This document shows, in pieces, positions 7,920 through 46,165 of a stretch of 64,000 nucleotides of DNA. Each line of letters opens with the position of its first letter. The first letter of the stretch is position 1. Origin of the DNA: Labia minor. Its lineage: Eukaryota > Arthropoda > Insecta > Dermaptera > Spongiphoridae. The position numbers were made by a program, and so were the translations under genes. The stretch spans positions 92,014,538 through 92,078,537 of the forward strand of contig OY720344.1 of assembly GCA_963082975.1 (NCBI GenBank), read 5' to 3'. Under the pieces are notes generated by a model. The model saw nothing but the letters and a program-made list of their open reading frames with translations. It made no database searches and was not told the DNA's origin.

Positions 7920-9108
7920 ACCGACCGACGATAGTAAGGGAGGTATTGTTTTCACACCAAATTTCACATATGGAGATTTTCACATATCTCCACGAATCAT
8001 GCATTATCTTAACAGAAAATAGTATTTTCAGCAAGATGTCTGTCCGTCCGTATAGATGTGTACACAGTGCCGCCCTAACCACAGGGCTAAATGGGCTATA
8101 GCCCCAGGGCGCAAGCCTTTTGAGGCTGCAATTTTTGATTTGCGATATAGTAAAAATTTATTTTTCATTTTATTAGTTTTTACTTATTTTAAAAAAAAAC
8201 ACTTCTTAAAATATTAAACTGATTTTTATTTCTTTCAAATGTGCTGAAAAAAGATAGATAGAGAAGGGCAACGCGAAATAGGAGTAACACCCTACAGATC
8301 GTAACTTTTGTTTCAGTCGCACTGGAGTTAATATAAGACCACCAATCATATAATAGTTCCGATCAAGTTCTAAGGATTAGACTAAAAAGTGATCGGTACT
8401 GTCATTATTGAGATAATCCCCTCAAATCTGGGTAAACATTTATACCCATCTTTTAAATAAGTAACTTTAAAGAAAAGTTACAATAAAGATAACAGTTTAT
8501 TATAAAAGTAATAAATAGTTTTTTTCTAGTTCTGACACTTTTGTTTTGTATAACTTTTCCGACTCCAATTTGCCATTCTGTGTATTTTGGACATTATTTT
8601 TAGTAGCCCATGGGCGCCGAATTCCTTAAGACGGCCCTGTGTGTACAGCTTGAACGGCTCAACGGATTTTGATGAAATTTGGTATATTGACTTAATGCAT
8701 CAGTATGATGAATTGATCAACTTTTGGTCTATATCCAGAAACCTGAAGTTTTAGTATTAGCGATCGACAATAGGAAGGGAATGGTTATTTTCACACCAAA
8801 TTTCACATGAAGAGATTTTTTTTATATATCACCACACGAATCATCATGCACTTTGTATTGGTTTTATCCTCGAGAAAAATCATCTTTATTAGTTTTTTCT
8901 TAATTTAAAATTATATGACGTCATCCAGCCATTCATGACGTCACAGCCTAGTGTTACATATATATTATAAATAAAATAAAATTAAAAATATTTATGTTAT
9001 ATCCATATCTGTTTTTTATTGCATTAATAGATACATTTAAATTATTTGAAATTGTTTCTGTAGCTGGAAATTAATTTACTTCAAACTGCGCCTGGCCACA
9101 GGTCAACT
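7920..9108 (-). mobile_element. Family A inner copy (inverted), interrupted by a hAT element
   Basis: It begins ACCGACCGACGATAGTAAGG and ends CTGGCCACAGGTCAACT, the complete family A unit in reverse. It contains the AAATTTCACAT segment, a short TGTCCGTCCG microsatellite and the TGTACAGCTTGAACGG block. Two TGACGTCA sites are near 8917-8950. The hAT at 8065-8639 splits it. No ORF is present. Confidence 0.78.
8065..8639. mobile_element. Non-autonomous hAT element nested in family A
   Basis: The 575-bp insertion has ends CAGTGCCGCCCTAACC and the inverse-type AAGACGGCCCTG. It is flanked by a perfect 8-bp duplication, TGTGTACA (8057-8064 and 8640-8647), which is a piece of the family A consensus TGTGTACAGCTTGAACGG. 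Removing the element and one duplication restores the family A sequence. The interior is AT-rich and non-coding. Confidence 0.88.
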
Positions 9109-9590
9109 TATTTAATTTATAATATATAAGGAGGAGCTGGCTGTGACGTCATGAAGGGCTGGGTGACGTCATATAATTTTAAATTAAGAAAAAACTAATA
9201 AAGATGATTTTTCTCGAGGATAAAACCAATACAAAGTGCATGATTCGTAGAGGTATTTAAAAAATCTACTCATGTGAAATTTGGTGTGAAAATAATCCTT
9301 CCCTTCCTATCGTCGATCGCTGATACTACCACTTCCGGTTTTCGGATATAAACCAAAAGTTGATAAATTCATCATACTGATGCATTAAGTCAATATACAA
9401 TATTTTATCAAATGAGCCGTTCAAGCTGTACACATCTATACGGACACACAACGGACGGACGGACAGACAGACGGGCAGAATACTTTTTTCGGTTAACTAA
9501 ATGCATGATTCGTGGAGATATGTAAAAATCTCCCCAAGTGAAATTTGTTGTGAAAACAATACCTTCCCTTACTATTGTCGGTCGGTAAAA

Positions 9591-12564
9591 CGAAGAATTA
9601 ATCAATCAGAATGGTAAAAGAGAATTAAACTATTTTTAAAAGATGCACACTTAGTTTTAATGTATTAATATAAAAATAAAGTAAATAAAATCTATTTTAT
9701 ACGCGGAGTCATTTGCAAATCAAATCCTTATGTATTCAAGACAATTTATTTGCAAATCTTGTTTTATCTTCGATTCATAAAATAAGATGGAAAAGAAAGA
9801 GAGAGAAAGAGGGTGGGGTGGGGTATGGGGCACATCTCTATAATCAAGCCTCAAAACCATAAAGAGAAACAGTTGGAAACAATAGTATTTCCCCTTCGTT
9901 TCGTCGGTTGGATGAATCTATGGTATTGCCTTTTCGATTGAAGATTCAATAGTAGCTTCTTTCCTGCTGGCTTTAGAAATATAACAATTTTTATAGGAAA
10001 TCATTTTATACGTTGTAAGATTGTTTTGGTATTAAAAAAACTAAAGCACAAAAAGAAGCGATTCAATGAATATTTAAGGATATGGTTTGCATTTGTTTGT
10101 TTTTTTTTCACTAAAAATTTAATGGGATAAATATTTTTGTACTGAAAAAAATGCATATATTAAAATAAATATATAAAATATTACTTATTGTTTGTATGTT
10201 TCGTTTTATTTTTAAATTAATTCAATGCTATCATTTATTGGTGCTCTTGATCGTTTTTTTTTTCATAAAAAATAAAAATTTTACATATTCAAATGTTTAT
10301 ATCCACTAAAAACAGTGGTGAGGTACCAGAATAGATTACCTGAGGTAATAAGAACATTTTTCAATTTTTCTATTTTATCAACTAAATAGAATAATATTTT
10401 TACTATAATGGATTGACTTGATAGCTTGTACAGGAATTCAAAATCGTAAAATAATACTAAAAGTTAAAAAAAAAATAAAATACAAAAACATTAATAAAAG
10501 TTATACAATTTTTTATATAGCAAGTCCAGAAGCTTCCATGGTAGATCAGAGTAATTCATTTTTGGTCATTGTTAAAAAAAAAAATAAATTCAAAAATTCA
10601 AATTAATTCTATTAATATTTTCAATTATTATTTACTTATACATAATTTTCATGCTTCTTCTAATTAATTCAATAAATAAATAAAAATAATATATATACAT
10701 TGAACTTAATTTTTTCTTTTTCAAAATGTAGGGTAATATAGTAACTTTTTGGCAATGGTTAAAAAATTTTCTTGACCGTTGCTATAAAATAAATTTGCAT
10801 TTTTAGGCTTAAAAAAGTTTAGTAAGTAAAAAAAAAACAAAAAAAAAAAAATGATTTTATTATAAATTTTCTTCAACTAAAAGTTATTGTCAATTTCACT
10901 TTTAAATAAATCAATAGTTTATTATTATAATTTCATACAAATCAAGAATTAATTTATAAGTATTTAAATAATATTCTCCATGTATTTTATAATAATTTTA
11001 TTATGAATTTTAAATTGAGATCAAGTGTTAAAATATTCGGATTTACTTTTCTGTGAATTACACTCTTCGGTGATTTTAATAAAAATATTTATATCCGTTG
11101 ATTCATTTAATTTAAAATATAGAATTTAATAAAATTCAATCCGAAGACCTTTAAATTATTTTTTTTTTAACAATATTTTTTATTTACTATATTTTCTATT
11201 TTTAAAAATCCTACATTTAATGACAATTATTATTTATTTTTATGTAATATTATTATTATTTTTTAATTTTGACTATATATGTATATACTTATATATATAT
11301 GTACATATATGTGTATATTTTATACTCACATTGAGTATTCATTATTCCCTTATTTAGATGAAAGCATTGAAACCATATATTTTTTCAATAAAATAAAATG
11401 AAAAATAAAAACAGGGGATATGACAAAGAGGTTTCAAATTTGATAGATCTATCTCTTTAGGGGAATCAAGAAATTTATTCCAGATGGGAGTTACATAATC
11501 CGCTGCCTTGTCCCAGAACTCAGACAGTATTGTCTAGTAAAGATAGGATTATTCTATCGATTTTGGATAACAGAGGATATATTAATAAAGACAATTTTAT
11601 TTTGATCGTTTGGTCTGGTAGGTATAGGAAAATAAAATTTTAAATTTAGAAAAATTGGTGATAAAATAGAAATTAATAATGAATAAAGGGCTGACATCAT
11701 CATTCATTTTATTTATTGTAAAATATTGCATTCAATTCATTTTATTTAGTTTTTTTATGAAACATCAACAAATTAAAATACAATATACCTATGTATGCCA
11801 ATATAAATAGATTTTTAATATGATTTATAGAAAGAGGTTTTTACATAATATTAAATATATATTTATATGTGTATGTTTTATAATAAATATATGTATATAT
11901 AAAAAAACAAACAAAAAACCTATGACTTTTCTACGTCCTACGCAAGGACAACGTCTATCAAGTCGGTTATATGATTGAGGTGTTTTATGATCAGTAGAAC
12001 AACCCCCCCCCCCCTTTACCTTGATTTACTTGATCGGAGGCGCTACTTTTTGTCAAGTAGCTTCCCAATGTTGATTCCGGAGGCTGAGTTGACTCCGTCC
12101 CATAGTCCAGCTAGAGAAATTCCCTCGCCAGGCCCGGGACTCTTTATGCCTCATACATCTTTTTTTTATTATGAAATTAATAGATTAACTGTAAACCTTT
12201 GTTAAAACATATTCATTTCTAAATCATAAAAATTAATATAATTTTTAATTAAAATATTCTATTAATGTATAAATTGATATATTAGTTATGCGCATTCCTG
12301 TTTTTATTTCTTGGAATAATAAAGCTATTGATGATGCGCATAAAGTAAATACATATACCTATCAATTCGAAACTTGATGGTGATGGTTTTAATTAAAAAG
12401 TATTCGTATTTGGTTTTATGTTTTAACTCTATAAATGTCATATGTGAAAAAATAAGTAGTGAGTAAATTTTATTTTTTCTTGTTTTTAATATCTCGCCAG
12501 AGATCACAAAAATTTTCAATGTCGAGATTTTGATGTTTTTACGTTTTGAAGGGCCCTGAATCAT
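9591..12564. other. AT-rich non-coding stretch
   Basis: No exon with a protein match is seen. A GAGA-rich tract followed by GGTGGGGTGGGG lies around 9785-9830. A GC-richer island of unknown origin at 11925-12155 contains a C13-type homopolymer and GTCCTACGCAAGGAC, a 5-bp-arm palindrome. The missing first-half SRCR exon of the lysyl oxidase-like gene was looked for here and not found. Confidence 0.45.
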
Positions 12565-12587
12565 TTTCACTAAGGTTGAGAAAAATG

Positions 12588-12639
<52 letters not shown>

Positions 12640-13030
12640 AGATTACGCAAAAGCGGTTTGAGCTAGAATAATGAAATTTGGTATACCGGCATTATTCAAA
12701 ATTCGTAGTTTTCTATCAACTTTTGAAAAAGGTAGCTCATCCGAAAATGGGTCATATCTACCAGGTTTTCATTTTATTCCTCTAAAATGACCGTAAAAAT
12801 AAAGATATATATTTGATAGTTTTTCACATGATTAAAAATTGTATAAAACTGCTATATATAGAATTTCAGCTTGATTGAATCGCTGAAAGTACCGGAATTA
12901 ATTTTTTAGCACATTGACTGGCAATCACGCACCATTAATTAATTAATTAAATTTAGTTTAAATATAATATATGTTAATTAATCCAATTCAAATTGCGAGA
13001 TAGTCGAGTGGAGACACTCCAGATTTTTTT
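12565..13030. repeat. Repeat with CT/GT microsatellite and AAATTTGGTAT-type motif; includes copy 2 of the 80-bp repeat
   Basis: A (TC)n then (TG)n tract at about 12588-12634 is followed by AGCGGTTTGAGC and ATGAAATTTGGTATACC, a phrase common in arthropod interspersed repeats. The right end (12949-13030) is the inverted partner of 2626-2706, ending GAGACACTCCAGATTTTTTT. It is probably one decayed transposon; I could not define both termini. Confidence 0.5.
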
Positions 13031-18908: not shown

Positions 18909-21593
18909 TCAAAATTTTCTATTAACGAGATCCAATATATCATATCTTTTTAATCTCTTGATTGTATCATCCCTAACTAGTAATTTTTTAACTAACACAT
19001 TTGGATGGTTTTCCATTTTTTTAATATACTTTTCACTTAGGATGTTTATTTCATCATTTAAGTTTTTAATTTCTAAGTCCCTTTGTATGAATCTAATTGG
19101 AACATACCACGGGGCTCTTACAAGATTTTTAAGTGTTTTGTTTTGAAAACTTTCAATTTTTTTTATGTTAGTTTTTGAGGCTGATCCCCAGAGTTGGATC
19201 CCATACATCAGTTTTGGTTTGATTATGGATTTGTATAGAAGAACTTTGCTTTCTAATCCTAGGCTAGAATGTCTCCCTAAAAGCCAATATAGTTTTCTAT
19301 ACTCTTCCCTTGAGTGGACAATTCTAGCTGAAATATGTTTTTTCCAAGTCAAGCGCCTATCTAGATGGATTCCTAGGTATTTTGCCTCATCTTTTTGCGG
19401 AATGATAGATTTATTCATGTATATTGGTGGGCATGTTTGCCTATTTAAGGTGTAGGTGACAAATATAGATTTGGTTGCATTTATCTTTAACCGCCATCTT
19501 TTAAACCAAAGATATAACATATCGAGATGAGTTTGAAGTCTTTCAGATACGACATTATGATTTACATTTGTTGAAATGATTGCAGTATCATCAGCGAAAG
19601 TTGCTATGTCATTATAAGGAGAGAGAGGCATGTCTATCATATATAATAGGAAAAGGGCTGGCCCTAGAATACTACCCTGAGGGACTCCTGCTCTAATTTG
19701 CATTAAGTTGGAGGAAGAACACCCATATTTAACAAAAAAGTGTCTATTCGATAGATAAGACTTTAATAATTGATAAAATGTATCTGGTAAATAGTTTTTA
19801 ATTTTATAAATTAACCCTGTGTGCCAAATTTTATCAAAAGCCTGTGTTATATCAAGATATACTATTCCACAGTAAGATTTACTTTCAAATGCATCTTTAA
19901 TTTTTTTAACTACCCTATGCACCTGTTCGATAGTAGAGTGTTCTTGACGAAAGCCGAATTGATATTCAGGAATTATATTTGTTAAGTAAGGCTTTAATTC
20001 TCGGAATAAAATTTTTTCCAAGATCTTTCCCAAAATTGGAAGAAGACTAATAGGCCTATATGATGTTAATTCATTTGGATTTTTACCTGGTTTTGGTATC
20101 ATTATAATTTGAGCTACTTTCCATAATGTTGGAAAGTAATTTAATTTAATTATAGCATTATAAATATTTGCAATAAAAATAAAGGCTATTTTGGGAAGTT
20201 CTTTTAATAATTTGCCTGAAATCAGATCATATCCAGGAGATTTTTTATCTTTTATATTTTTAATTTCGTCAAGAACCTGCTCAAGTTTGATTTTTTTAAA
20301 TCTATGGGGGTCCTTATGTAATTTACTAGTTTTTATGATGATTTCATCACACTTGTATTTATTTTCATTTTCAGGGGGTTCATTGAACACATTAAATAAG
20401 TGCTTAGCAAAAATATCTACTTTTTCTTTCTCACCTCTAGCCCATCCCTTAGAAGTTTTTATTGGTGGAATTTGGGTTTGGGGTCTTTTTAAGGTCTTAG
20501 TTGCCTTCCACAAAGAGTAATTGCTTTCTTCCCCTGGACTAAGGTTACTTAAGTATTTCTGAATACCTTTTTCTTTTTCAATTTTTAATATTTTTTTTAA
20601 ATTTTTTATACATTTATTTAGAGTTTTTTTATCCGTAGGGGACCTTGTCTTTTGCCATCTCTGTCTAGCTTTGCGTTTTTCATCTATTTTGTCCTTAATT
20701 AATTGAGAACAAAGGTTTTTTTGATTTTTAATATTTGCTATGGGGGTAGATTGCAGAGAAGCTTTTTGAATTATTTTTGTTAAGTTGTTTATATTATCCT
20801 CAATATCATGTTTGTCTTTTATACAAATATTGAGGTTTATATTTTTTGTTATTAAATTTCTATAGTGGTTCCAATTTGTATATCTATTGAAAAGGGGAAC
20901 ATTTTTTACTCTTTTATCTAATTGGGTTGATACAGTTAAAATTATAGGAGAGTGATCAGATGATAAATCCAAACTAGATTCAATATTTAAGCAATCAAGA
21001 GAAATACCTTTAAAAATACAAAAATCTAATAGATCAGGGGTTTTTTTTGGATCTGAAGGCCAGTAGGTTGGTTGACGAGTTGAAATTTCATTCAGATTTC
21101 TTTCTTGAATAGCTTGGTAAAGTTGCCTCCCTCTAGGTGTTGTCAATCTTGAGCCCCAATGGGTGTGCTTAGCGTTGAAATCTCCACCTGAGATGAATTT
21201 GTAGCCCAAGGTATTAAAAAACTGTTTAAAATGTTCACACTCAATTTTAGTACCCGGCGGGCAGTAAACTGCAGATAGTGAAAGTTTCCCTAGCCATTCA
21301 TCAATTTCAATTGTTGTTGCTTGAAGATGCTTTTCCGAATAGCTATTTAATTGATGGTGTTGAATATTTTTTTTAATTATAATAGCAGTTCCTCCTCTAG
21401 CTTTTCCATCCGGATGCTTAGTGTCATATATATTGTATTGGGGTATTTTAATGTAGCTTCTATTAGTTAAATGTGTTTCACTTATGAGCATAATATCAAT
21501 GTTGTTAATTATAAGAAATTTTTTGATTTCGAGTAAATGATTAAATAAACCATTTGCATTCCATATTACAATTTTAAGTGTTTTTCTATCCAT
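18909..21593 (-). CDS. LINE ORF2: apurinic-type endonuclease plus reverse transcriptase
   Basis: 894 residues, the replication enzyme of the LINE. The N-terminal endonuclease (about 1-220) shows WNANGL (11-16), SETH (38-41), GGDFNAKH (136-143) and SDHSP (212-216), which are the metal and catalytic positions of the family. The reverse transcriptase (about 450-760) shows KSPGYD, SYRPISLLP (511-519), FGFRQEHST, AFDKIWH (585-591), AGVPQGSILGP (635-645) and the catalytic FADD (666-669). The C-terminal region has YLGIHLDRRLTWKKH and LLYKSIIKPKLMYG. No RNase H domain or zinc knuckle is visible. The length is typical of jockey-clade ORF2. The start codon overlaps the ORF1 stop by one base (TAATG), suggesting translational coupling. 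All recognisable catalytic residues are present, so the enzyme may be active. Confidence 0.95.
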   Translation of the reverse strand: MDRKTLKIVIWNANGLFNHLLEIKKFLIINNIDIMLISETHLTNRSYIKIPQYNIYDTKHPDGKARGGTAIIIKKNIQHHQLNSYSEKHLQATTIEIDEWLGKLSLSAVYCPPGTKIECEHFKQFFNTLGYKFISGGDFNAKHTHWGSRLTTPRGRQLYQAIQERNLNEISTRQPTYWPSDPKKTPDLLDFCIFKGISLDCLNIESSLDLSSDHSPIILTVSTQLDKRVKNVPLFNRYTNWNHYRNLITKNINLNICIKDKHDIEDNINNLTKIIQKASLQSTPIANIKNQKNLCSQLIKDKIDEKRKARQRWQKTRSPTDKKTLNKCIKNLKKILKIEKEKGIQKYLSNLSPGEESNYSLWKATKTLKRPQTQIPPIKTSKGWARGEKEKVDIFAKHLFNVFNEPPENENKYKCDEIIIKTSKLHKDPHRFKKIKLEQVLDEIKNIKDKKSPGYDLISGKLLKELPKIAFIFIANIYNAIIKLNYFPTLWKVAQIIMIPKPGKNPNELTSYRPISLLPILGKILEKILFRELKPYLTNIIPEYQFGFRQEHSTIEQVHRVVKKIKDAFESKSYCGIVYLDITQAFDKIWHTGLIYKIKNYLPDTFYQLLKSYLSNRHFFVKYGCSSSNLMQIRAGVPQGSILGPALFLLYMIDMPLSPYNDIATFADDTAIISTNVNHNVVSERLQTHLDMLYLWFKRWRLKINATKSIFVTYTLNRQTCPPIYMNKSIIPQKDEAKYLGIHLDRRLTWKKHISARIVHSREEYRKLYWLLGRHSSLGLESKVLLYKSIIKPKLMYGIQLWGSASKTNIKKIESFQNKTLKNLVRAPWYVPIRFIQRDLEIKNLNDEINILSEKYIKKMENHPNVLVKKLLVRDDTIKRLKRYDILDLVNRKF

Positions 21594-23086
21594 TATGCCA
21601 TTTTAGTTACAAGAACTGTTAGAATATCTAACATTTTGTCCATTTTAACCATCATTTTAAGCATAAAATCTTCAAGTTTATGTAAATTTGATTCTTGACC
21701 ATTTACTGGTGTAGGTTTCTCTTTAGTCCATGCATTTTGTACTGGTGGAACACTCTCAATGGTCTCATTTTTGGAATTGGGGGATATTTTCTCTTTTGGT
21801 TGTTGAGATACCTTTATCCTCAAAGGTGGAAACTGTTTATTTTTTAACTCTTGATATATTGTACATCCTTTATAACTTGCTGGATGGTTTTCGCCGCAGT
21901 TAGCACATAAAGGAGTTGTATTGTTATCCTTAATTTTGCAGTCTTTTGTTAAATGTGCCATAGCACATTTCACACATTTGGGTTTTCTTGCACAAAAATT
22001 TTTTGTGTGGCCAAAAAGTTGACAATTAAAACATTGAGGAATTTCTCTTTTAGGATATGGTGGTTCAAATGTGACAATTGTATTAAGGATATTTTTTATA
22101 TTGTATATTTCTTTATTACTAGGTTTAGGTTTAAGGTCTATGAAGAATAAAGGTAGAGGGTTTTTATTTTTATTTTTTATATTGTGTATATTTATTACAT
22201 CATGTCCATGATTTAGTAGTGCCTCTTTAATATCTTCGGCAGGCATTGAATGATGCATGTTCCTTAATACAACTTTAAAAGGCCTATCTTTTTTTAGCTG
22301 ATATGTATGGAATTGAGTGTTTTTAGATTCCAACTCTTTAACAATTGATGTATAGATGTGAGGTTCATATGGTTGGATCTTGACCTCATTTTCCTTCAAA
22401 CATTTTATATTAAAACAATTTGGTCCCATTTTATTTAATAGATTCATTAGCGGTTGGATATTTTCAACTCCCGCTACAAAGATCGGAGGAGGTTTTACTG
22501 CTTTTCCAGTTGTTTTTTTATTTATAGTTTCAACCTGAAGATTTTCAAAACGATTTGCTGTTTTTACGTTTGGATTGTTTAACCAATATGATTCAGTAGT
22601 TTGCTGTTTAACATTTCTATTATTAGATTTTTCAAAATTGTCCTCTTTATTTTGTAAATTTTCAGGAGAATAAAAAGTTTTCCTTTTTTTATTCCCATGT
22701 CTATTTACCGTTGACCATCCTATTTCATTTTCCAATTCCTCTTCGTCCGTGAGATATACAATTGCATTGTCGGAAGTTTTCAAATTTTGCAATTTAGTGT
22801 CTACTTCCTGTTTATCAGATGTAATTTCAGGGCAAGGATTTCCTAAGATCTTGCTTTTTATTTCTTGAAGATCTTTGGTGAGGTTTTTTATCACCTCTTT
22901 TAAATGACTATTTTCATTTTTTAAAATTTCATTTTCAGATAATGTTTCTAATTCATTATTTGAATTTTCAGTGATTTCCCTATTTACATCCTTCTTACAC
23001 ACATCTTCTATTTGAGATTTGAGCGGCGGGGTTCTCTGTAATTTTGTCCCTTGGAAAGGGTTTATTGACTCCTTATCCAAGTTCAT
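21593..23086 (-). CDS. LINE ORF1: gag-like nucleic-acid-binding protein with three zinc knuckles
   Basis: 497 residues. Residues about 42-82 (ELETLSENEILKNENSHLK onward) are a likely coiled coil for multimerisation. Residues about 200-320 form the jockey-type gag domain (TYQLKKDRPFKVVLRNMHHS, then LPLFFIDLKP), an RNA-binding-like fold preceding the knuckles. Three CCHC-type knuckles lie at about 352-408: CFNCQLFGHTKNFC, CVKCAMAHLTKDC and CANCGENHPASYKGC. The 'NHPASYKGC' third knuckle is characteristic of arthropod jockey-like elements. The protein would coat the element RNA. The ATG lies about two bases from the flanking target duplication, so transcription probably depends on an internal or outside promoter. 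Confidence 0.93.
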   Translation of the reverse strand: MNLDKESINPFQGTKLQRTPPLKSQIEDVCKKDVNREITENSNNELETLSENEILKNENSHLKEVIKNLTKDLQEIKSKILGNPCPEITSDKQEVDTKLQNLKTSDNAIVYLTDEEELENEIGWSTVNRHGNKKRKTFYSPENLQNKEDNFEKSNNRNVKQQTTESYWLNNPNVKTANRFENLQVETINKKTTGKAVKPPPIFVAGVENIQPLMNLLNKMGPNCFNIKCLKENEVKIQPYEPHIYTSIVKELESKNTQFHTYQLKKDRPFKVVLRNMHHSMPAEDIKEALLNHGHDVINIHNIKNKNKNPLPLFFIDLKPKPSNKEIYNIKNILNTIVTFEPPYPKREIPQCFNCQLFGHTKNFCARKPKCVKCAMAHLTKDCKIKDNNTTPLCANCGENHPASYKGCTIYQELKNKQFPPLRIKVSQQPKEKISPNSKNETIESVPPVQNAWTKEKPTPVNGQESNLHKLEDFMLKMMVKMDKMLDILTVLVTKMA

Positions 23087-23087
23087 A

Positions 23088-23166
23088 TTCTATATTTGAA
23101 TACTTCTTTTATTTTAAGGGAGAGAATTAACTATGATCTAAAAAAATAATAAATGAACTTAATAAT
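23088..23166. repeat. 79-bp target site duplication of LINE, 5' side copy
   Basis: Identical to 18578-18656. It begins two bases beyond the ORF1 start codon of the minus-strand LINE, which fixes the 5' boundary of the insertion. Confidence 0.93.
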
Positions 23167-26752: not shown

Positions 26753-27613
26753 GTAAGTAATAATTAAATTTTTATTCTATATAATTCACTATCTCTTAAT
26801 TATCGATGTAATATATTATCAAATACACAAGCTAATTCTTTCAACAGTGTTACCGGGTATGCAAATCATTTTCCATTTATCAATGGGTAAACATTCCACT
26901 TTTCAATGTCATCCTAACTATCTTCATGTAATATTTACCAAAGCCATCTGTTCTTCAAATTCTTTAGTTCAACTTAGAACTATTCCTCTGTCAAATTTCC
27001 AAACAAAACAAAACAGAAATTAAGTTTTTATTATTAATCTTGTATAAAAAAAAAACAATAAGTAAATCACATTTACAGTATTTCTTGATTATTTTTAAAG
27101 AGACCAAACACGAATATTAATTGAAATTATTTTTAAAAATAAAAACATTATTTGTAATTAAATATGGTTTATTAATTTATGATAGATACCAGCTTAAATA
27201 TTGACTTTTATTCAAATATTATACTCCTCCCTCTAATATCAATATTCAATATAGAATTCAACAAACCATTTTGTGCCGTTAGCTTTTTGACATTTTAATA
27301 TATATATAACCAGTGTAATTAGGAAGAGGTTAATGAATTTAAAATGTACCTATTAATTGCTTTGTTTATAATTAACAAAAGTTGCTAATTGGATTAAACC
27401 CTTTCCTCCTTAATGATTAAACTGAAAACTAAATTAAAATTTTGTATTATAATATTAATTTTGTATTAAAATATCATTTTTTATGTACATTTTTATATTC
27501 TCAAAACAAATAATATATTACAATAAATACAATAATAGAATCTATACTTATCTATAAATTCATATTAAGTTATCTATAAATTTATGAGTTTAAGTACATG
27601 AGAACAATTAAAT

Positions 27614-28761: not shown

Positions 28762-29398
28762 AAGTTGACCTGTGGCCAGGTCCGAACCGACCGACGATTT
28801 GAAGTAAATTAATTTCCAGCTACAGAAACAATTTCAAATAATTTTAATATATCTATTAATGTAATAAAAAACAGATATGGATACATAAATAATAAATATA
28901 AACATTTTTAATTTTATTTTATTTATATAATATATAAATATGCAAGACCAGGCTGTGACGTCATGAATGGCTGGATTACGTCATATAATTTTAAATCAAG
29001 AAAAAACTAATAAATATGATTTTCCCGAGGATAAAACCAATACAAAGTGCATGATTCGTGGTGATATATAAAACAATCTCCTCATGTGAAATTTGGTGTG
29101 AAAATAACCCTTCCCTTCCTATCGTCGATCGCTAATACTACCACTTCCGGTTTGCGGATTTGCACCAAAAGTTGATCAATTCATCCCACTGATGCATTAA
29201 GTAAATATACCAAATTTCATCAAAATCGGTTGAACCGTTCAGACTGTACACATCTATACGGACAGACGGACAGGCATCATGCTAAAAATACCTTTTTCTG
29301 TTAAGAAAATGCATGATTCGTGGAGATATGTAAAAATCTCCACATGTGAAATTTGGTGTGAAAACAATACCTCCCTTACTATCGTCGGTCGGTAAAAA
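28762..29398 (+). mobile_element. Family A repeat, uninterrupted copy
   Basis: About 637 bp from AAGTTGACCTGTGGCCAGG to ATCGTCGGTCGGTAAAAA. In order: ACCGACCGACG near the left end, AATTAATTTCCAGCTACAG, one intact TGACGTCA and one mutated TTACGTCA, CCTATCGTCGATCGCTAATAC, AAATTTCATCAAAATCGG, TGTACACATCTATACGGAC with a short GGAC tract, GCATGATTCGTGGAGATATG, and the inverse CGTCGGTCGGT at the right end. There is no ORF. It is an unclassified non-autonomous element in a lysyl oxidase-like intron. Confidence 0.85.
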
Positions 29399-30028
29399 TC
29401 TTTTCTTCTAATAATCCAACATAATTTAAACTATTTAATTTATTCTAAAAGATCTCACATTTTATTTTTGTTTTAATATCATTATAGATCATATTGAATA
29501 ATTCTTTAATTTTCATTTTATCTAAATATCAATTACAAAAGATTATTTTTTAAAATCATTTAACTATATGTTAATAATAATAATAATTTCCATAACTTTT
29601 CTCCATTCATTGTAATGTATTGATTTGTATATTTATTGACACCAATTATTAATTACTCTAATTAAGAATTAATTTTTTTAATTAAAATGATTTTTCTGAT
29701 CTCAACGTGATATATTCAGATGGATGTAACAACCCTCTCTCATAAAAAAAAAATTCTTGCATTTCATACAAATGTTATGAACAATTAATTTACAATACTA
29801 TTTTTACTAGTATAATAAAATTAATAAAAGGGAGCTAGGCATTGAAGGTTAATATAAACATTGATTGATTCTGTCTTTTATCAATCCTTATATCTCTGTA
29901 GGGCTTCTGATCTTGAAAGTTCTTGGCCAGGTCATAATAAAATGTTACAAATTTAAATGTAAATAAATACAATATAAAAAAATGTTTATAATTTTATTTA
30001 TTATTATATATCTACATTTATTTTCCAG
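29399..30028 (+). other. Intron of lysyl oxidase-like gene
   Basis: AT-rich. TGAAAGTTCTTGGCCAGG near 29917 recalls the tail of the captured LINE family but is too short to assign. Confidence 0.4.
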
Positions 30029-30290
30029 AAATGGCTGATTTAGTGATTGATCATCATGAAATCATGCGATCCAGTCACCTCGAGGATCGACAATTGTTCT
30101 TTCTCCAGTGTGCCATGGAGGAGAACTGCCTCGCTTCCAGTGCCTATTCCATACAATCGGATCGAACAAGCGACTGGCATTTAGAATCACGACGTTTGCT
30201 CCGATTCACCGCGAGAATCCTCAACTTGGGCACAGCTGATTTCCACTCCAATGTCCCGAAACACCTCTGGGAATTCCATCAATGTCACAT
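30029..30290 (+). CDS. Loxl2: Lysyl oxidase-like gene exon: first part of the catalytic domain
   Basis: The acceptor is TTTTCCAG and the donor is CACAT|GTAATG; phase 1 in, phase 2 out. The translation starts QMADLVIDHHEIMRSSHLED, then RQLFFLQCAMEENCLASSAY, then RRLLRFTARILNLGTADF, and ends HLWEFHQCHM. These match the N-terminal half of the lysyl oxidase fold (family: 'PDLV...S-LEDRPM--LQCAMEENCLASSAY' and 'RRLLRF----NLG-ADF'). The exon carries the first histidines of the copper site, completed across the splice junction as WEFHQCHMHYHSM. Confidence 0.95.
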
Positions 30291-31590
30291 GTAATGACAA
30301 CATTCAAAATTCTATCGTATTTTCTCGTTTAAATTTAATTATCGCTCGGTATTTCAATTTGCGTTTGCTTTCTCATATGCCTTTATCGAATGTGTCAGTC
30401 GGTTACTCATTATCCGGATTTACGTTAAAGAAAATTTTGTGAATATTTTGCGATAAATTAAATTTTAAAACATTTTCATAATGAGTTAATTTATTCAAGG
30501 AAGAAGAGGACGAGGAAAATATCAAATGATAATTATAAACCAATTAAATCAATAAAAACATAATCAAAACATAAAAATTATTATAATATATGGGGACATG
30601 CCATACCAAATCACACATGAAAGTTTTTAATTTTCATGATGTTTTTTGCTATCAATTACTACTTTTTTCAAATTTTTATTTCAATTTAAAATAATCTTAT
30701 CAGACATATTTTAAAGAGTTATTTATATATTAATCTTTTGAAATTCAAAATTTTACCATTTGAGATTAAGTTCTTCCTGTTTGAATTTTATTTTTAAAAT
30801 TTTCTAAATATATTGATCAAATTTAAAGATTTTATATTGAATAAAGAATTAATTTTATTTTTTAAATTTCATTAAGTAATAAAATGCTAAACTGGAGAAC
30901 TTGGATGAAGTTACAAACTCCACAAATTTTTAAAAAATTTTAAATAAGATAGTTAATGTGATAGAATCAAAATAAATAAAAGTGTTTATTGACTTATTGT
31001 TAGATCTCTAGAATCAATAGAAAAAATTATTAAATAAAATATTTTTAAGGGCTTATCTCTCTTATCTATCCACCAGTTTCGTTTAAAATAGTTTTGAATA
31101 TACATATATTTAATTGTTGATCAAATATCTAATCATTTATGTTTAAGTATATTTAATGAAATAAAATAATAATTTTTAAAATAAATTATCAACTGAAGTG
31201 AGAAGCTAATTTTTTAATTTAATTTAATAGATTTAATAGAATGGATGATAATGTATTTACAGTTATTAAGTTAACAAAATGAGTCTTAGGTGATACCGAA
31301 GCCCCATTATAATTAAATGACAAATATTAAAAACAATAAGAATGATAGTAAAATAAAGCCAAAGTCACTAAAATAAAATAAAAATAATTTACATATTAAA
31401 TAATAATTCATAAATATTTAACATGAAAAATATTTTTTTTTTCTTTTTTTTTAAAGTAACCTTAAATTTATAAATGTAAAATTAATAATAAATATAAAAG
31501 ATTAAAGGTAAGTTATTATAAACAATACTCGGTGTTTGGTTTCAAAATACTTTTTTAATAAACTCTAGTTCTCGTATATACTAGTACTAG
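30291..31590 (+). other. Intron of lysyl oxidase-like gene, AT-rich
   Basis: Nothing recognisable beyond simple AT-rich sequence up to the hAT element. Confidence 0.5.
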
Positions 31591-31851: not shown

Positions 31852-32208
31852 TTCTAGAGTATAGTATAGCTGATAATGACGTTGTAGAAATGATCATAAA
31901 GTTGAAGAAAAATTTATTTTGAAACAACAAACCAAGTGTTGTTAATAATAACTTACGCCCCTCTAACCTTTTATTTTTATTATTTTCAGTTTCATTTATA
32001 AATTGAAAGTTATAAAAAAAGAAAAAACAATATTTTTTTCATACTAAACATACAAATAATACAACGTTTCAATGAGAGTTGTCAGTCCAATCCTTAAATC
32101 TAAATAAATATTTAATTAATTGAAAATTATAATAGAATTATATAACATTGTTTTTTTGTTTTTTGTTTTTCTCATTTCATCTGACAAGTTTTGTTTTTCA
32201 TTTGATAG

Positions 32209-32461
32209 GCATTATCACTCGATGGAAATTTTTGCTCGTTTCGATGTTCTTGATGCCTACGGAAATCGAGTTGCAGAAGGGCATAAAGCCTCATTTTGTC
32301 TTGAAGACAATCAATGTCTCCCTGGAATTGAACCGAGATACGCTTGTGCCAATTTTGGTGATCAAGGCATTTCTGTCAATTGCACAGACATTTATCGTTA
32401 CAATATTGATTGCCAATGGGTGGACATTACAGATATCGAACCAGGCGAATATACATTCAAG
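32209..32461 (+). CDS. Loxl2: Lysyl oxidase-like gene exon: copper site and LTQ cofactor region
   Basis: The acceptor is TTTGATAG and the donor is AAG|GTAGGT; phase 2 in, phase 0 out. It completes the copper-binding motif [13 protein letters not shown] (three histidines alternating as in LOX). [10 protein letters not shown] supplies the lysine of the lysine-tyrosylquinone (LTQ) cofactor, and [18 protein letters not shown] supplies the tyrosine. Aligned by eye with human LOX, these correspond to Lys320 and Tyr355. So the enzyme has every residue needed for copper-dependent amine oxidation. The final EPGEYTFK leads into the last exon. Confidence 0.95.
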
Positions 32462-32529
32462 GTAGGTAATATTCGCTTTGTTAATCAATTGTGCCATATT
32501 GAATGATAATTATTTCAATTCATTTTCAG

Positions 32530-32652
32530 GTATCGATTAATCCTGAATTCAAAGTTGCCGAACAAAGTTTTGAGAACAATGCAGCAGTTTGTAAAATGTA
32601 CTATACCACAAGTACTGTCTCAATACATTCCTGCTATTTAACGAGACCATAA
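32530..32652 (+). CDS. Loxl2: Lysyl oxidase-like gene terminal exon
   Basis: It is separated from the previous exon by an intron of only 68 bp (acceptor CATTTTCAG), in contrast to the kilobase-sized introns upstream. Forty codons and a TAA stop: VSINPEFKVAEQSFENNAAV, then CKMYYTTSTVSIHSC and a short tail. It matches the family C-terminus ('V-VNP-Y-V-E-DF-NN---C---Y-----W-H-C'). An A-rich tract follows at about 32684, and AATAAA signals lie near 32885 and 32930. Confidence 0.95.
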   Translation, partial: VSINPEFKVAEQSFENNAAVCKMYYTTSTVSIHSCYLTRP

Positions 32653-34580: not shown

Positions 34581-34780
34581 TTTTAATAATAAAAAACATA
34601 TTTTTATCATCTTTCAAAGACATTTATTTGTTTTGTTGTTTTTTTTTGAGAGAGATTAATAAATATATATATATTTTATTAAAAATAAATATTTTTAATT
34701 TTATTTCGAAATTAAATAATAAATTCTAAAATATTTTAAATAAAAAAAAAATATTAATACAATTTCAGTTAAAAAATAAT

Positions 34781-35418
34781 AAGTTGACCTGTGGCCAGGT
34801 CCGAACCGACCGACAGTTTGAAATAAATTAATTTCCAGCTACAGAAACAATTTCAAATAATTTTAATATATCTATTAATGTAATAAAAAACAGATATGGA
34901 TATAACATTAATATTTTTAATTTTATTTTATTTATAATATATAGCTGAAGTAGCCGGCGTTGCCGGCGTTACCCGAGGCTGTGACGTCATGAAGGGCTGG
35001 GTGACGTCATATAATTTTAAATTAAGAAAAACATAATGAAGATGATTTTTCCCGAGGATAAAACCAATACATTCGTGGTGATATGTAAAAAAATCTCCTT
35101 ATGTGAAATTTGGTGCGAAAATAACCCTTCCCTTCTTATCGTCGATCGCTAATACTACCACTTCCGGTTTCCAGATTTGCACCAAAAGTTGATCAATTCA
35201 TCCCACTGATGCATTAAGTAAATATACCAAATTTCATCAAAATCCGTTAAGCCGTTCAGGCTGTACACATCTATACGGACGGACGGACGGACAGACATCA
35301 TGCTAAAAATACTTTTTTCTGTTAAGAAAATGCATGATTCGTGGAGATATGTAAAAATCTCCACATGTGAAATTTGGTGTGAAAACAATACCTCCCTTAC
35401 TATCGTCGGTCGGTAAAA
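34781..35418 (+). mobile_element. Family A repeat, uninterrupted copy
   Basis: About 638 bp with the same order of blocks as 28762-29398. It has two intact TGACGTCA sites (about 34982 and 35004), preceded by a GC-rich CGGCGTTGCCGGCGTTACCC segment that is shared with the copy at 40175-40834. The microsatellite is GGACGGACGGACGGACAGAC. It ends TCGTCGGTCGGTAAAAA. Confidence 0.85.
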
Positions 35419-36004
35419 ATGGATGTCATGTGACGTCACCCATATATAATTTTAAATTAAGAAATAAATAATGAAAATGTACGTTTCCTGAGATGTGATC
35501 AATAAAACTCAATTTTTCTTTATAAATACTATATCTAGTGTGAATTTGAAAAAAATCGTTAGAGCGGTTTTTGAGAACCCATGGCTATATATATATATAT
35601 ATACAATTTTAGCTAGCATAATAAGATAAGATATTAGACAAAAAAGTTATAAGTATATTGAGAATATAAAATCATAATCCATTTGGGACTTCCATTAAAA
35701 GATATAAAAGTTGAAAAAATTGAAGAATTGAAGAAATTCTTACACAATTATCAGTTTTAAAAATTTATTAATATAATATAAATTTTTTTCAAATCAATCA
35801 TTTCCTTTCATTTTCAAATTTCAATTCAATCATTTCCTTATTCGATATTAAAATCACTAACAGAGCGGAAATTACTTTCTGAATGGCTTATAATTTTCAT
35901 CAAAGATAATCCGTATTATACAATAAAATAATGACAGACAGACTCCATTATAAAGAATTGGACAGTGGAGGGTTTAATATTTAATTGGGATTTTAACCAT
36001 TTTT
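35419..36004. other. Repeat-like segment next to family A
   Basis: GGATGTCATGTGACGTCACC right after the family A end holds one further TGACGTCA. ATCGTTAGAGCGGTTTTTGA near 35555 resembles other arthropod repeat tails. The rest is AT-rich. Confidence 0.4.
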
Positions 36005-37390: not shown

Positions 37391-39647
37391 TATATGTAAT
37401 AAATTTCAATTTGTTTAATTTAAACGTTTTAACAAAATATAATTTAAATGATGATAAATGTACATAATAATAATAATTTGGAAAATAAAATAAAGAAAAT
37501 ATTTTTGAAGTTCCTTTGATTTTATTATCAAAGAATAATCCATTAACGAGAGACATTAATGCAAGAATTAGAAGGAAGAAATAAAATCTCAACACACAAC
37601 AATGATAGAATCAATTTTTAAAAAACATTTTCAAATTTTTAGAATATATTTACCTAAAATTCAAATAAACTATTCATAAAAATATAAAACATACATTACA
37701 ATTAAATCTGATATTTTCAAAAGTGAATAGAATAATAAAATCATCATAATGATTTACTGGTAGAAAAAGTTGCTGATTACGTTTAACTTTTTGAAAAATC
37801 TTCTTGATGGTTATTCAAATTCATAATAAATTTCACAAGTATTTTTTTGAGTTCTTTCGTATAATAAATAAATAATATCTTATTAATCTAAATTAAATAA
37901 TAGGATTTCAAATCTTCCTATAATTTTAATTTTATTTTTAAAAATTCAATATTAATATTCTTTTTTTTCTCTACCTAATATTAAAGTAAATTAATATAAG
38001 AGAATACAAAAGTTTATGTAAATGGATGCTTGAATTAATTTAATGAGAAAAATGAATAAAACATTGTTTCTAACTTGAATTCGACCGAAGCAATACCTAT
38101 GTAAATATACCTTGTTAAATTTTATTTCTTCTTATTTATAAAATAAAATATCAACTTCAATACAAATAATATAATTTTTCCATTTATTGTTATATAAAAG
38201 GTTCTTAATTAAAAAATGAATAATATTGAATTTTTTTTTTTAAAGATAATATTGTCAAAATGTAAATACTAATTAGACTATGCTTAAATGAATTTAAATA
38301 AGAATTTAAATAGAAAATAGATTGGTGTAAACAATTGATTAAATTTAATTGATAATCTAATTAGTAATAAACCTTTAATGGAATATGAAACGTTTTTGGT
38401 GCAATTTAACTATTAACTCACAAATAATTCAATTCAATTCTATTAAATAAAATAAAATATCAATAAGATTTGATTAGCAATTAGCAAGGGTTTCCACTAA
38501 TTTTTTTACTTGTCTACTCTGAAGAGGGTTCTGCTATGGGACTAAAACATCGACATATTAGCTGCAAAAGAAGTTTCATTTCTATACCTTTTTTTGTACT
38601 AGCTATCAGTTGACAATTAATCCATTTAAATATTACATTTATTGTTTAATATTTAAAACAATTAATTATATATACAAGTATAAGAATATAATCTACAATA
38701 TAAAAAATACACCTCCAAAAAAATTAATTTTGATATAGGTCTAATATTTATTCCTTATTTATGCAGCATCCAGAATGATTTAAAATCAACGTTAAATCTT
38801 TCAAGTGAAAATTTTATTTAATGTTTATAACAATTTATTTTAATAAAATTAATTCAGAGAAGATAGAAATTGGATAATAGTTGATTCAGGGTTAGAGTAG
38901 GCAATTGTTGTTGAGCATTTATTATTTTTAAATAGAAATTTTAAATTCACTTTTTTTTATAAAAATATATTTTAGAAAATACAAATAACTGAGAATATTA
39001 AATACTTAATTATATTTCTTTGTGTTTTAATGTTTGTTAATTTTTGTTAATTTATTGACCATATGATTTAATAGATTTGACAATATATATTGATTCAGAA
39101 CAAAATCACTCATAAAATAATAAATCTTGAAACAAATATTGCATAAATAATCAAAATTTCTAATAAATCTATTATTCAATTTTAATATTTAAGAATTGTT
39201 TTTTTAGTTTAGTTTGTAAAAGAACAAAAAAAAAAAAAAAAATAAAGTGAAAAAAATCTTTTCCATAAGAGCTGAACAATTTCTATTTTCAACTCAACGA
39301 ACATTCATGTTTTTTTTTCAATTTTTTTTTTTTGTTAGTGGGAGGAAAGGCGACAAAAAGTCTTATAAATGTGACTGCATTCCAACCAGCACTAGATAAA
39401 TAATAGCCTCTTGAATAATAAGTTTTAGGGGATTTCTTTTTCTTAGCTCATAAATATCTCATTTGTCATCAATAATCAATGAGCTTAAAAGGGCAATTTA
39501 CCACCAAAAAATGAATATATTACCTTTAATTTTTTTTTTTCATTTTAAAATTGTATTATTAGAAAAAAATTTAAATATAAATTAAAAAAATTATTTGCTA
39601 AATTTATATAAGTATATCTATTTATCTAAGCTTATTATAATATCAAT
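37391..39647. other. AT-rich intergenic/intronic stretch
   Basis: It lies inside the proposed long first intron of the 7TM gene. Almost featureless. A short conserved-looking segment at 38515-38570 (CTGAAGAGGGTTCTGC then GGGACTAAAACATCGAC) is noted among the findings. Confidence 0.5.
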
Positions 39648-40940
39648 AAGTTGACCTGTGGCCAGGTCCGAACCGACCGACGGTTTGAAGTAAATTAATT
39701 TCCAGCTACAGAAACAATTTCAAATAATTTTAATATATCTATTAATGTAATAACAAACACAGATATGGATACATAAATAATAAATATAAACATTTTTAAT
39801 TTTATTTTATTTATAATATATATGCAAGACCAGGCTGTGACGTCATGAATGGCTGGATGACGTCATATAATTTTAAATCAAGAAAAAACTAATAAATATG
39901 ATTTTCCCGAGGATAAAACCAATACAAAGTGTATGATTCGTGGTGATATATAAAAAAATCTCCTCATGTGAAATTTGGTGTGAAAATAACCCTTCCCTTC
40001 CTATCGTCGATCGCTAATACTACCACTTCCGGTTTCCGGATATACACCAAAAGTTGATCAATTCGTCCCACTGATGCATTAAGTAAATATACCAAATTTC
40101 ATCAAAATCGGTTGAGCCGTTCAGGCTGTACACATCTATACGGACGGACAGACATCATGCTAAAAATACTTTTTACCGACCGACGATAGTAAGGGAGGTA
40201 TTGTTTTCACACCAAATTTCACATGTGGAGATTTTTACATATCTCCACGAATCATGCATTTTCTAAACAGAAAAAAGTATTTTTAGCATGATGTCTGTCC
40301 GTCTGTCCGTCTGTCCGTCTGTCCGTCCGTCTGTCCGTCCGTATAGATGTGTACAGCCTGAACGGCTCAACCGATTTTGATGAAATTTGGTATATTTACT
40401 TAATGCATCAGTGGGATGAATTGATCAACTTTTGGTGCAAATCCGGAAACCGGAAGTGGTAGTATTAGCGATCGACGATAAGAAGGGAAGGGTTATTTTC
40501 ACACCAAATTTCACATAAGGAGATTTTTTTACATATCACCACGAATGTATTGGTTTTACCCTCGGGAAAAATCATCTTCATTATGTTTTTCTTAATTTAA
40601 AATTATATGACGTCACCAAGCCCTTCATGACGTCACAGCCTCGGGTAACACCGGCAACGCCGGCTACTTCAGCTATATATTATAAATAAAATAAAATTAA
40701 AAATATTTATGTTATATCCATATCTGTTTTTTATTACATTAATAGATATATTAAAATTATTTGAAATTGTTTCTGTAGCTGGAAATTAATTTATTTCAAA
40801 CCGTCGGTCGGTTCGGACCTGGCCACAGGTCAACTTTTTTCTGTTTAGAAAATGCATGATTCGTGGAGATATGTAAAAATCTCCACATGTGAAATTTGGT
40901 GTGAAAACAATACCTCTCTTACTATCGTCGGTCGGTAAAA
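39648..40940 (+). mobile_element. Family A outer copy, split by an inverted family A copy
   Basis: The left part (39648-40174) runs from AAGTTGACCTGTGGCCAGG through two TGACGTCA sites to CATCATGCTAAAAATACTTTTT. It then breaks and resumes at 40835 with TTTTTCTGTTTAGAAAATGC, ending CTATCGTCGGTCGGTAAAAA. Removing 40175-40834 restores the consensus. The insertion point is a run of T, and ACTTTTT flanks both sides of the insert. Confidence 0.85.
40175..40834 (-). mobile_element. Family A inner copy, inverted
   Basis: A complete unit in reverse, from ACCGACCGACGATAGTAAGG to CCTGGCCACAGGTCAAC. It has two TGACGTCA sites (about 40607 and 40628) and an expanded CCGTCTGT microsatellite (about 40292-40340), longer than in the other copies. 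Its GC-rich CGGCAACGCCGGCTACTTC segment matches the copy at 34781, so those two are close sub-family members. Confidence 0.88.
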
Positions 40941-42169
40941 ATTGAGCATATCTTTATGAACTTGGAAATTGTTCATATATTTTTAGGAATTTCATGCATT
41001 AGGAAATTTTAAAAGTGAAGAATCAATTTGTATAGATCTTATTTATAAAAAATCTCTTTAATTGTCTTTTTTTTAATTAAAGTAATAACATTTTACCATA
41101 AAAATATTAGTTATTGATATCATCCACCCTGACCCCAGAATCAGCTAAGGGGCGGAGGTTACATAGTATATTTTCTAATATGAACCAAAAGTAAGGTGTC
41201 TTTATTTACATAACAATATAATCATTTGTTTTTAAGTTAGTATGAGTGTCTTTGAAATCTGACAGTTTTATATGATTTCGTATATTTATTAAAAAAAAAA
41301 CTATCTATTTCATTAATTGATCTTCATTTACAATTATAATCTGCTTATATTTTAAATATAAAAAATAATTATTCTTTAATTTCATTAATTGAATTAAACC
41401 GATAACTTTTAAAATAAATTAAATAAGCTTAATTATATTAGTTTATTAGGAATTAAGATTAAAAATTGTATTATATTTGAAACAATACCTCCCTTACTAT
41501 CGTCGGTCGGTAAAAATTTGGAAACTGGTAGAATTATTTTATATTCATTGTCGTACATTTATGGAGAGGTTCTCCGAAATGAAGTTAGCTATGAATGTAC
41601 ATCTTATAATATTAAAGGTTTTGTATTAAAAAACCTTCTAGGTTTTTTAAAAATTTATATTGATTAATAATCTATATAATATGTACAAATATTAATTATT
41701 TATAAGATATGAATAGTAATATGGTGAAACTCGCGCGATTATCATAATAATCGGCCAAGCCAATTTATCAATATTGTCGTAACAAATATACAATAGTGAA
41801 TAGTCCATAAGAAATAAATTTAAAGTACTGAATTGTTGTTCAATAAATTTTTGAAAACATTTAGAAGCTTATACTATTCTACATATTTGCTATTCTACCT
41901 AGAAGATCTTAATTTACTTATTGTTAAATTCTATTTTTCAAATTTGACTGAGAGATATTTATTGATTTTTTTTTGTATCCTGATTATCATAAATAAATGT
42001 TAATCTCCAACGAAGAAAGCATTAGTATTCATTTAATTGAAATAAAATATGTTAACGGCGAGAGATTTATTTCCAATGTTAATGAAATTTATTTTGTTTG
42101 TTTAATAAACTCTTCTAAGTTGAAATGTTTGTTCATTTTGTTTTTATTTTTTTTTTAAAGTTTTTCTAG
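40941..42169 (+). other. AT-rich sequence before the first coding exon of the 7TM gene
   Basis: It contains only the family A end fragment at 41480-41516. The T-rich acceptor tract at 42140-42169 precedes the coding exon. Confidence 0.5.
41480..41516 (+). repeat. Family A right-end fragment
   Basis: AAACAATACCTCCCTTACTA then TCGTCGGTCGGTAAAAA: only the last 37 bp of the family A consensus. Confidence 0.8.
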
Positions 42170-42380: not shown

Positions 42381-42466
42381 GTAAATATATTTTAATAAAT
42401 TATGATATGTATTATGTAAATTAACCACCACTCACGGAAAAAATATAAAAATGAATAAAAAATATA

Positions 42467-44164: not shown

Positions 44165-44238
44165 GTATTTTAGAAAACATAAAAATGGCATAAGGCGATT
44201 AGAGCCCGTCTGATTCTAATCGATATTTCTTTTGTTAG

Positions 44239-44415
44239 TAGTTGTCTCGAGTGAACGATTCGCCGAAATCCAGCCACTTGCCAAATCGTTTGGACTGCGT
44301 TTTGTAATAAGCATTTCGGATTTAGCATCCACCATCATGAATGAGATTAACAAATATAATTCCGTTGATAAGGATATTTCCTGTTCGAGTCCGAAGCCGC
44401 CAGAGATTGGCAACG
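44239..44415 (+). CDS. 7TM receptor exon 4, with tandem (NAGNAG) acceptor
   Basis: The acceptor region TTTTGTTAGTAG offers two AGs three bases apart. Both preserve the frame and would add or drop a single valine. It reads VVSSERFAEIQPLAKSFG, LRFVISISDLASTIMNEI and then DISCSSPKPPEIGN. The donor is AACG|GTAAAA. The alternating hydrophobic strand/helix pattern suggests a small alpha/beta ectodomain element, but I do not recognise a family. Confidence 0.75.
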
Positions 44416-45582
44416 GTAAAATGTTAACTTTGGAAAACATACCATATTGAAATATAGACATATTGATTTTTTGGGTAAAGCCGCCCCCTTTACTCCCACT
44501 CTTTCAAATATAATTAAATATTCGAAATGTGAGCAATTCAATTTATCAAATAATCATCTCTCCTATTCATTCACACAAACTTCTAGTTATAATATTTACA
44601 GGCATCTTAAAAAATTAAATAGAAATAAATCTATCTATCTATTTCTCTATCTATCTATCGATCTATATATATATATATATATATAATTATAATTCAAAAT
44701 TGGAAAATAAAATCCTTTTTAACGATTGACCCATTTTTGATGAACTATTTTGTCTATATTTGAAGTCCCCAGAAGGTTCCTTTCTAGTTTAATGGAATTA
44801 ATTAATGATTAAGTGGACCTAATTAACAAATTCATGTAACTCCTTTCCTGGATTTTCAATTTAACGCAAATTAGAAAAGGATTGACGTTTTTTTTTAAAT
44901 AAATGAGCTTCACGCTTGGAGGAAGGGGTATTTTCCACCTTCGGGGCTCATATAAATACAAATATTTTGATTATCTTTATTATCATTGATTTATTTAATA
45001 TTATTTTCCAATAAAAGAAAAAAATTGAATAAAATAATTAAATGATAAAAGAAAAATTAACACATCAATTAAGACTTATTAAATTAACAAATAAAAAAAT
45101 TTCAATCAAATTATATCTAAAATTATAAATTTTAATATTTGAATGACTTTTTTTGTACGGTTTTTAGGGTCATTATGATTCTAATGACTTTTAAATCTTT
45201 TGTATCTTTGAAACTTTATCATTTTATTTTTTCCGATGTTCAAAACATAAATTTATGGCATTATACATCTTTCCTATATGACCCCTAATTTTTTCATGTG
45301 TGTGTGTGTGAATCTTCTATTATCTATTATAACAAAACAATAATTCACTTGAATTACCATAAGATATTTTAAAATTTAAAAATAACTTTTGGAATGTATT
45401 CTTGGTAAAAATTTTTAAATCATTTATACAAATAAATTTTTTAAAAATTAGTACAATATAATATTTAAACTCTTATGGTATCAGTTTAAAAAAATTATGT
45501 TTCTAAGCTAGTATGTATCCTAATAAAAGATTAATTCAATCTGTATTATTTATTAACACATCTAGTAATTTGTATTTAAAAT
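44416..45582 (+). other. Intron of 7TM gene
   Basis: AT-rich with a (TCTA)n/(TA)n tract near 44629-44685. No exon is seen. Confidence 0.5.
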
Positions 45583-46165
45583 AAGTTGACCTGTGGCCAG
45601 GCTCACGGTTTGAAATAAATTAATTTCCAGCTACAGAAACAATTTCAAATAATTTAAATGTATCTATTAATGCAACAGAAATGGATATAATATAAATATT
45701 TTTAATTTTACTTTATTTATGATATATAAGTAAGAGCTGTGACGTCATGAAGGGCTGGGTGACGTCATGTAATTTTAAATTAAGAAAAAACTAATGAAGA
45801 TGATTTTCCCGAGGATAAAATTAATAAAAAGTCCATGATTTGTGGAGATATGTAAAAAAATCTTCTCATGTGAAATTTGGTGTGAAAATAACCCTTTCCT
45901 TCCTATCGTCGATCGCTAATACTACCACTTCCGGTTTCCGGAATTGCACCAAAAGTTGATCAATTCGTCCCACTGATGCATTAAGTAAATATACCAAATT
46001 TCATCAAAATCGGTTGAGCAGTTCAAGCTGTACACATCTATACGGACGGACGGACATACATCATACTAAAAATAATTTTTTCTGTTAACAAAATGCATGA
46101 ATCGTAAAGATATGTAAAAATCTCCACATGTGAAATTTGGTGTACTATCGTCGGTCGGTAAAAAA
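45583..46165 (+). mobile_element. Family A repeat in 7TM intron
   Basis: It runs from AAGTTGACCTGTGGCCAGG to TATCGTCGGTCGGTAAAAA with internal deletions (the left ACCGACCGACG block is lost, and the last part is shortened to GGTGTACTATCGTC). Two TGACGTCA sites lie near 45741 and 45762, the second at GGGTGACGTCATG. Confidence 0.82.

Follow-up and report, generated by a model that had tools for sequence, protein, structure and literature searches.

A probable HINE/DINE-1-type element family carrying a doubled CREB/ATF-consensus palindrome, most likely as a passenger

Non-autonomous Helentrons of the HINE/DINE-1 kind are recognised by a small set of structural marks which, as published, comprise subterminal inverted repeats (subTIRs), a 3′ stem-loop, a T-rich target that is left unmodified, and a GTCY microsatellite (PMC4067079, PMC2374699, PMC7492417). 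Elements of the helitron type are able to disseminate motifs that proteins do bind, as is shown by ISX of Drosophila miranda, which dispersed MSL sites (PMC4384637). In a 64-kb stretch of DNA from Labia minor, referred to below as the window, we have characterized a repeat, family A, that is a well-bounded mobile element of an ordinary kind with a conspicuous doubled palindrome. We consider it quite probable that family A is a non-autonomous Helentron (HINE) of the DINE-1 kind that carries the palindrome pair as a passenger.

Copies were compared by local BLAST and by alignment of seven copies, and nhmmer was used for profile searches. The family is non-coding and roughly 590–680 bp long. Read in the sense used here, which is the opposite of that adopted in the first-pass annotation of this DNA, the element is ordered 5′-T(n)-ACCGACCGACGATAG ... 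(GTCY)n ... CRE pair ... ATCGTCGGTCGG-TTCG-GACCTGGCCACAGGTC-AACTT-3′, where the CRE pair consists of two units of TGACGTCA, the CREB/ATF consensus. The subterminal repeat, CCGACCGACGAT, lies next to the 5′ Ts and is matched by an inverted repeat near the 3′ end. Its 5′ core, ACCGACCGAC, is present in all seven aligned copies, and the exact inverted match on the 3′ side extends over 10–13 bp in four of them (10, 11, 11 and 13 bp) and over 8 bp in one, the 3′ subTIR being deleted in the remaining two. Outside the 3′ subTIR, which ends ~25 bp from the 3′ end of the element, a stem-loop (GACCTG-GCCA-CAGGTC; DNA fold −6.4 kcal/mol, z −2.18) has a perfect 6-bp stem in four copies and a shortened one in three. 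Every copy contains GTCY or RGAC runs of at least three units. Folding of the first 91 nt gave weak pairing near the 5′ subTIR and a separate 8-bp hairpin, GTGGAGAT/ATCTCCAC, ~40 bp further in. A degenerate second copy of the 5′ module (subTIR, CACACCAAATTTCACATG-GGAGAT...) recurs in mid-element, which gives the element a composite appearance.

Our assignment of family A to the HINE/DINE-1 group follows from the match of its subTIRs, 3′ stem-loop, T-rich target and GTCY array to the published marks. HINE subTIRs are described as about 11–15 bp long. The likeness to HINE/DINE-1 (INE-1; PMC4067079, PMC2374699) takes in the 5′ Ts, a 10–13-bp subTIR near both ends, a 3′ stem-loop outside the 3′ subTIR, the GTCY microsatellite, T-rich insertion without evident duplication and the lack of coding capacity, whereas the subTIR sequence, the internal degenerate 5′ module and the central TGACGTCA pair are family A's own. 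Two features agree less closely: the 3′ subTIR of mite HINEs is described as lying 38–60 bp from the 3′ end, farther in than in family A, and DINE-1 is described as having an inverted repeat beside and complementary to its 5′ subTIR, a feature absent in mite HINEs, of which the folded 5′ end of family A gives no clear sign. Cg_HINE of Crassostrea gigas (PMC7492417) shows a comparable layout, with a GTCY-type microsatellite in the left module, central repeats, and a right module containing a subTIR and a palindrome; its central repeats, however, are satellite-like arrays, while family A has just two units 20 bp apart.

The ends of the element and the nature of its target are revealed by nesting. 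Near 7.8–9.6 kb and again near 39.6–40.9 kb, in correction of the first-pass annotation, one copy proves to be inserted into another in the opposite orientation. The minus-strand copy 39635–40942 is interrupted, its 3′ part (39635–40174) being separated from its 5′ part (40833–40942, identified by BLAST) by a plus-strand copy (40170–40847) that lies in a T run and exposes the element ends. By comparison with uninterrupted copies, ATAC-TTTTTT-CTG has become ATAC-TTTTT[element, ending CAAC]TTTTTTCTG at this joint; the uninterrupted ATAC-T(n)-CTG site carries 5 or 6 Ts in the three copies compared. At the second locus a plus-strand copy (7915–9122), which has lost its 3′ subTIR, splits AATTTT|ATTTT in like manner within a minus-strand host (7768–9591), of which the 3′ part occupies 7768–7917 (BLAST, nhmmer) and the 5′ part 9108–9591, with an A+T-rich, approximate edge towards the nested copy. 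Both targets are T-rich, and the sole gain at both joints is of Ts, so that an all-T target duplication would be indistinguishable from Ts belonging to the element. Nested copy 7915–9122 also contains a non-autonomous insert of its own at 8065–8639 (ends CAGTGCC... / ...GGCCCTG), which is flanked by an 8-bp duplication, TGTGTACA, and which we take to be hAT-like.

These joints bear on whether family A could instead be a SINE, or the MITE of a cut-and-paste DNA transposon. Such an element might equally be non-coding, shorter than 700 bp and furnished with inverted repeats towards its two ends, and a 5-bp all-T duplication is possible at one nested joint. Yet the repeats of family A lie subterminally, a stem-loop is found outside the 3′ copy, both nested joints have nothing in common except Ts, and the (GTCY)n array is as described for HINEs. 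A SINE or RNA origin is not favoured by the results for the window as a whole, in which ARAGORN found no tRNA and no Rfam family reached its gathering score. We regard the MITE or SINE interpretation as very unlikely.

Twelve stop-to-stop frames of at least 110 aa lie wholly within the window; nine of them were scanned against Pfam, and none of the 12 resembled an autonomous Helentron. Searches of viral contigs gave no exact match to the CRE-pair, central-motif, 5′-module or 3′-end patterns, and searches of prokaryotic genome contigs gave none to the CRE-pair or 5′-module patterns; given the viral and prokaryotic nature of these collections, both results carry little weight. In the collection of open papers searched the central motif string was not found, nor, among the matches listed, was TGACGTCA found alongside DINE-1, Helentron, MITE transposon or INE-1. 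Its co-mention with Helitron in that collection is in a paper on Arabidopsis, and that with transposable element, CREB and insect in one on Drosophila feeding.

Three further long copies, all on the minus strand, complete the set of seven, among which pairwise identity is 0.87–0.97. Copy 34770–35420 (BLAST, alignment, nhmmer) belongs to a subfamily with an extra GCCGGC-AAC-GCCGGC stretch, and copy 45580–46165, detected by the same three approaches, has lost its 3′ subTIR. The third, 28751–29399 (nhmmer 742 bits), has the 13-bp subTIR match and lies between an SRCR frame (26476–26757, plus strand) and the first of three plus-strand Lysyl_oxidase frames recognised by Pfam (29992–30291, 32120–32506 and, as the last recognised piece, 32503–32649). 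The SRCR and Lysyl_oxidase frames would together represent one lysyl oxidase-like (LOXL) gene, and since copy 28751–29399 sits between exons of the same strand it is probably intronic in that predicted gene. The recognised lysyl-oxidase pieces end before copies 34770, 39635 and 40170 are reached. The first-pass annotation had placed copies in introns of two genes; this can be supported for 28751–29399 alone and is unproven for the second gene, of which one exon is recognised, a class C GPCR-type piece at 54109–54471 (Pfam 7tm_3). A sequence search of PDB at E 0.01 found nothing matching that exon, and Pfam searches of other frames gave no match at E 0.05 for 44220–44447, 46770–46973 and 56203–56502 and none at E 0.001 for 49548–49967. 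Elsewhere in the window a two-ORF non-LTR retrotransposon, presumably Jockey-like, occupies 18909–23089 on the minus strand, with a PRE_C2HC frame (498 aa) and an endonuclease/reverse transcriptase frame (897 aa), and a second ORF1-type open frame with a PRE_C2HC domain is found at 60149–61483.

Several other sequences in the window are related to family A in part. A plus-strand relative of the central part of the element (5417–5579) has the same flanks, with the CRE pair replaced by another GC-rich stretch (ATGGCGCC...) that lacks TGACGTCA; more broadly, the diverged repeats at 35421–35640 and 5283–5581 share flanks with the central part and differ in their cores. A plus-strand HINE-like fragment at 58846–59262 retains the (GTCY)n module and the 3′ end. 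Its CRE-pair part is not recognisable, and as nhmmer identifies model positions 114–266 and 570–633 only, that region must be missing or replaced. The 3′ end region of this fragment is spanned by a perfect 267-bp tandem duplication (59070–59603), giving two 3′ ends in a row, which reflects either a recent event or an assembly effect. A faint relative of the microsatellite module (12504–12747; nhmmer 13.4 bits) has a (TG)n run ahead of a TGAAATTTGGTATA motif. An isolated 5′ end of ~39 bp (41479–41517, model positions 4–42), behind which no further element is recognised, might be the remnant of a copy that stopped early.

The window contains 14 perfect matches to TGACGTCA, where dinucleotide shuffling (n = 100) leads one to expect 0.18 (sd 0.44, maximum 2). 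The matches start at 8916, 8936, 9144, 9164, 28956, 34982, 35002, 35431, 39838, 39858, 40608, 40628, 45740 and 45760. Thirteen of them fall in the seven long family A copies, arranged as pairs whose start-to-start spacing is 20 bp in all seven. The pairs are given no strand. By exact matching both sites are perfect in six copies (8916–8943, 9144–9171, 34982–35009, 39838–39865, 40608–40635 and 45740–45767); in the seventh pair (28956–28983, exact plus variant match) the second site, which starts at 28976, is altered to TTACGTCA (TTACGTCAT). What the repeat spreads is a pair of CRE-consensus palindromes in fixed arrangement, and 13 of the 14 sites in its seven copies conform to the CREB/ATF consensus. 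The paired arrangement at constant spacing and the single mutated site in the copy near 28762 had both been noted in the first-pass annotation and are borne out here. Its pair coordinates were accurate to within 1 base at their starts, although some of the ends ran up to 8 bases too far, and the extra site that it gave at 35430 exists (35431–35438, no strand) but belongs to another repeat, which adjoins copy 34770–35420 on its 5′ side and is not family A.

The CRE pair occupies the central part of the element, where it lies between CTTAATTTAAAATTATA and an A+T-rich stretch at a distance of ~175–225 bp from the 3′ end. Both units contain TGACGTCAC followed, after a 2-base gap, by AGCC, a shared context which suggests that the pair may have originated by a short tandem duplication. 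In two copies the pair is adjoined by the second doubled palindrome, GCCGGC-AAC-GCCGGC, at 34925–34981 and 40636–40675; in the latter, within nested copy 40170–40847, the first unit reads ACCGGC.

We compared retention of the CRE pair with that of the rest of the element in the seven-copy alignment, the copies of which share ancestry, so that all figures derived from it overstate the independent evidence. Across the alignment, 191 of 4218 cells (4.5%) depart from the majority. The 16 CRE columns contain a single substitution in 112 cells, where base-specific rates would give 5.7 (Poisson P 0.022). Among equally spaced pairs of 8-mers, 67 of 592 are as intact as the CRE pair (13 or 14 of 14). 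When a mask shaped like the CRE columns is moved along the element, 83 of 590 positions have no more substitutions than those columns, a count that falls to 50 of 590 when gaps are barred too. Differences and gaps in the 28-bp block from first to last CRE base, spacer included, add up to 8, whereas blocks average 13.8 and 35% of them score as low. A comparison of CRE decay with that of neighbouring CpG positions, which the first-pass annotation had proposed, showed no difference in the seven copies: all 14 CpGs of the CRE sites are intact, against 115 of 130 elsewhere in the element, summed over 20 further CpG rows of the alignment (Fisher one-sided P 0.20). CpG is in any case no fast-decaying yardstick here, because its observed/expected ratio in the window is 0.90. 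Retention of the CRE pair is good and not exceptional, and we lean towards no special retention.

The possibility that the pair is a working dimer site for CREB/ATF or another bZIP protein, spread by the element for its own transcription or for control of host genes, must be weighed against these figures. It is a sensible idea in light of ISX, which provides a precedent for a helitron-type element distributing functional protein-binding motifs; ISX/ISY and family A are alike in being rolling-circle-type elements that disperse such a motif, but binding data are reported for the former (PMC4384637), whereas the sites of family A are predicted from sequence. The near-perfect preservation of the sites (13 of 14), the deficit of substitutions relative to base rates, and a spacing held constant in all seven copies are points against mere passenger status, and each unit is itself palindromic, which a hairpin would not need. 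On the other side stand the many equally spaced pairs and 28-bp blocks that are just as intact, CpG retention no better than elsewhere, and the different sequence found at the same place in the related repeat at 5417–5579. We judge a working site to be improbable, and regulatory use of the pair, as predicted from its sequence, would be likewise improbable or somewhat more so. Quite improbable, in our estimation, is the larger proposition that the doubled CREB/ATF site, carried through an arthropod genome by a HINE family, would have been kept because it works, whether by driving or enhancing transcription of the element itself or as a ready-made response element for host genes, for example the lysyl oxidase-like gene with a copy in its probable intron. 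Host CREB/ATF-type proteins may nevertheless bind some copies.

It is also conceivable that the two direct copies of the palindrome serve as the arms of a hairpin, with an 8-bp stem and a 12-nt loop, in a single-stranded rolling-circle intermediate or a transcript. The predicted DNA fold (−7.2 kcal/mol, z −3.15) was equalled by 2 of 200 shuffles, the full stem is kept in six of the seven copies, while copy 28751 folds at −3.9. At about the same place there is a second repeated motif, GCCGGC-AAC-GCCGGC, in copies 34770–35420 and 40170–40847 (with ACCGGC as first unit in the latter) and, in the 5.4-kb relative, a further GC-rich stem. Every doubled palindrome folds in this way, however; the sole substitution, at 28976, is uncompensated; and the stem is distant from the known stem-loop at the 3′ end. 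A hairpin function appears highly unlikely.

Most likely, then, the CRE pair is a passenger, a reading that rests on the frequency of equally intact pairs (67/592) and of equally low masks (83/590) in the same element and on the existence of a relative with other sequence in that position. If family A moves as Helentrons are described to do, copying would be carried out in trans by a partner Rep/helicase/endonuclease via a rolling-circle intermediate of single-stranded DNA. The 3′ stem-loop would mark the element end, and the new copy would join between T residues, the TGACGTCA pair being copied along passively. Because its spacing is fixed and the element's ends are clear, the CRE pair is easy to test copy by copy. 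If the pair works, family A would add to the rolling-circle elements that have brought genes under a common signalling response; if it does not, family A would still be a HINE family with well-defined bounds, in which the nested copies directly show the insertion site.
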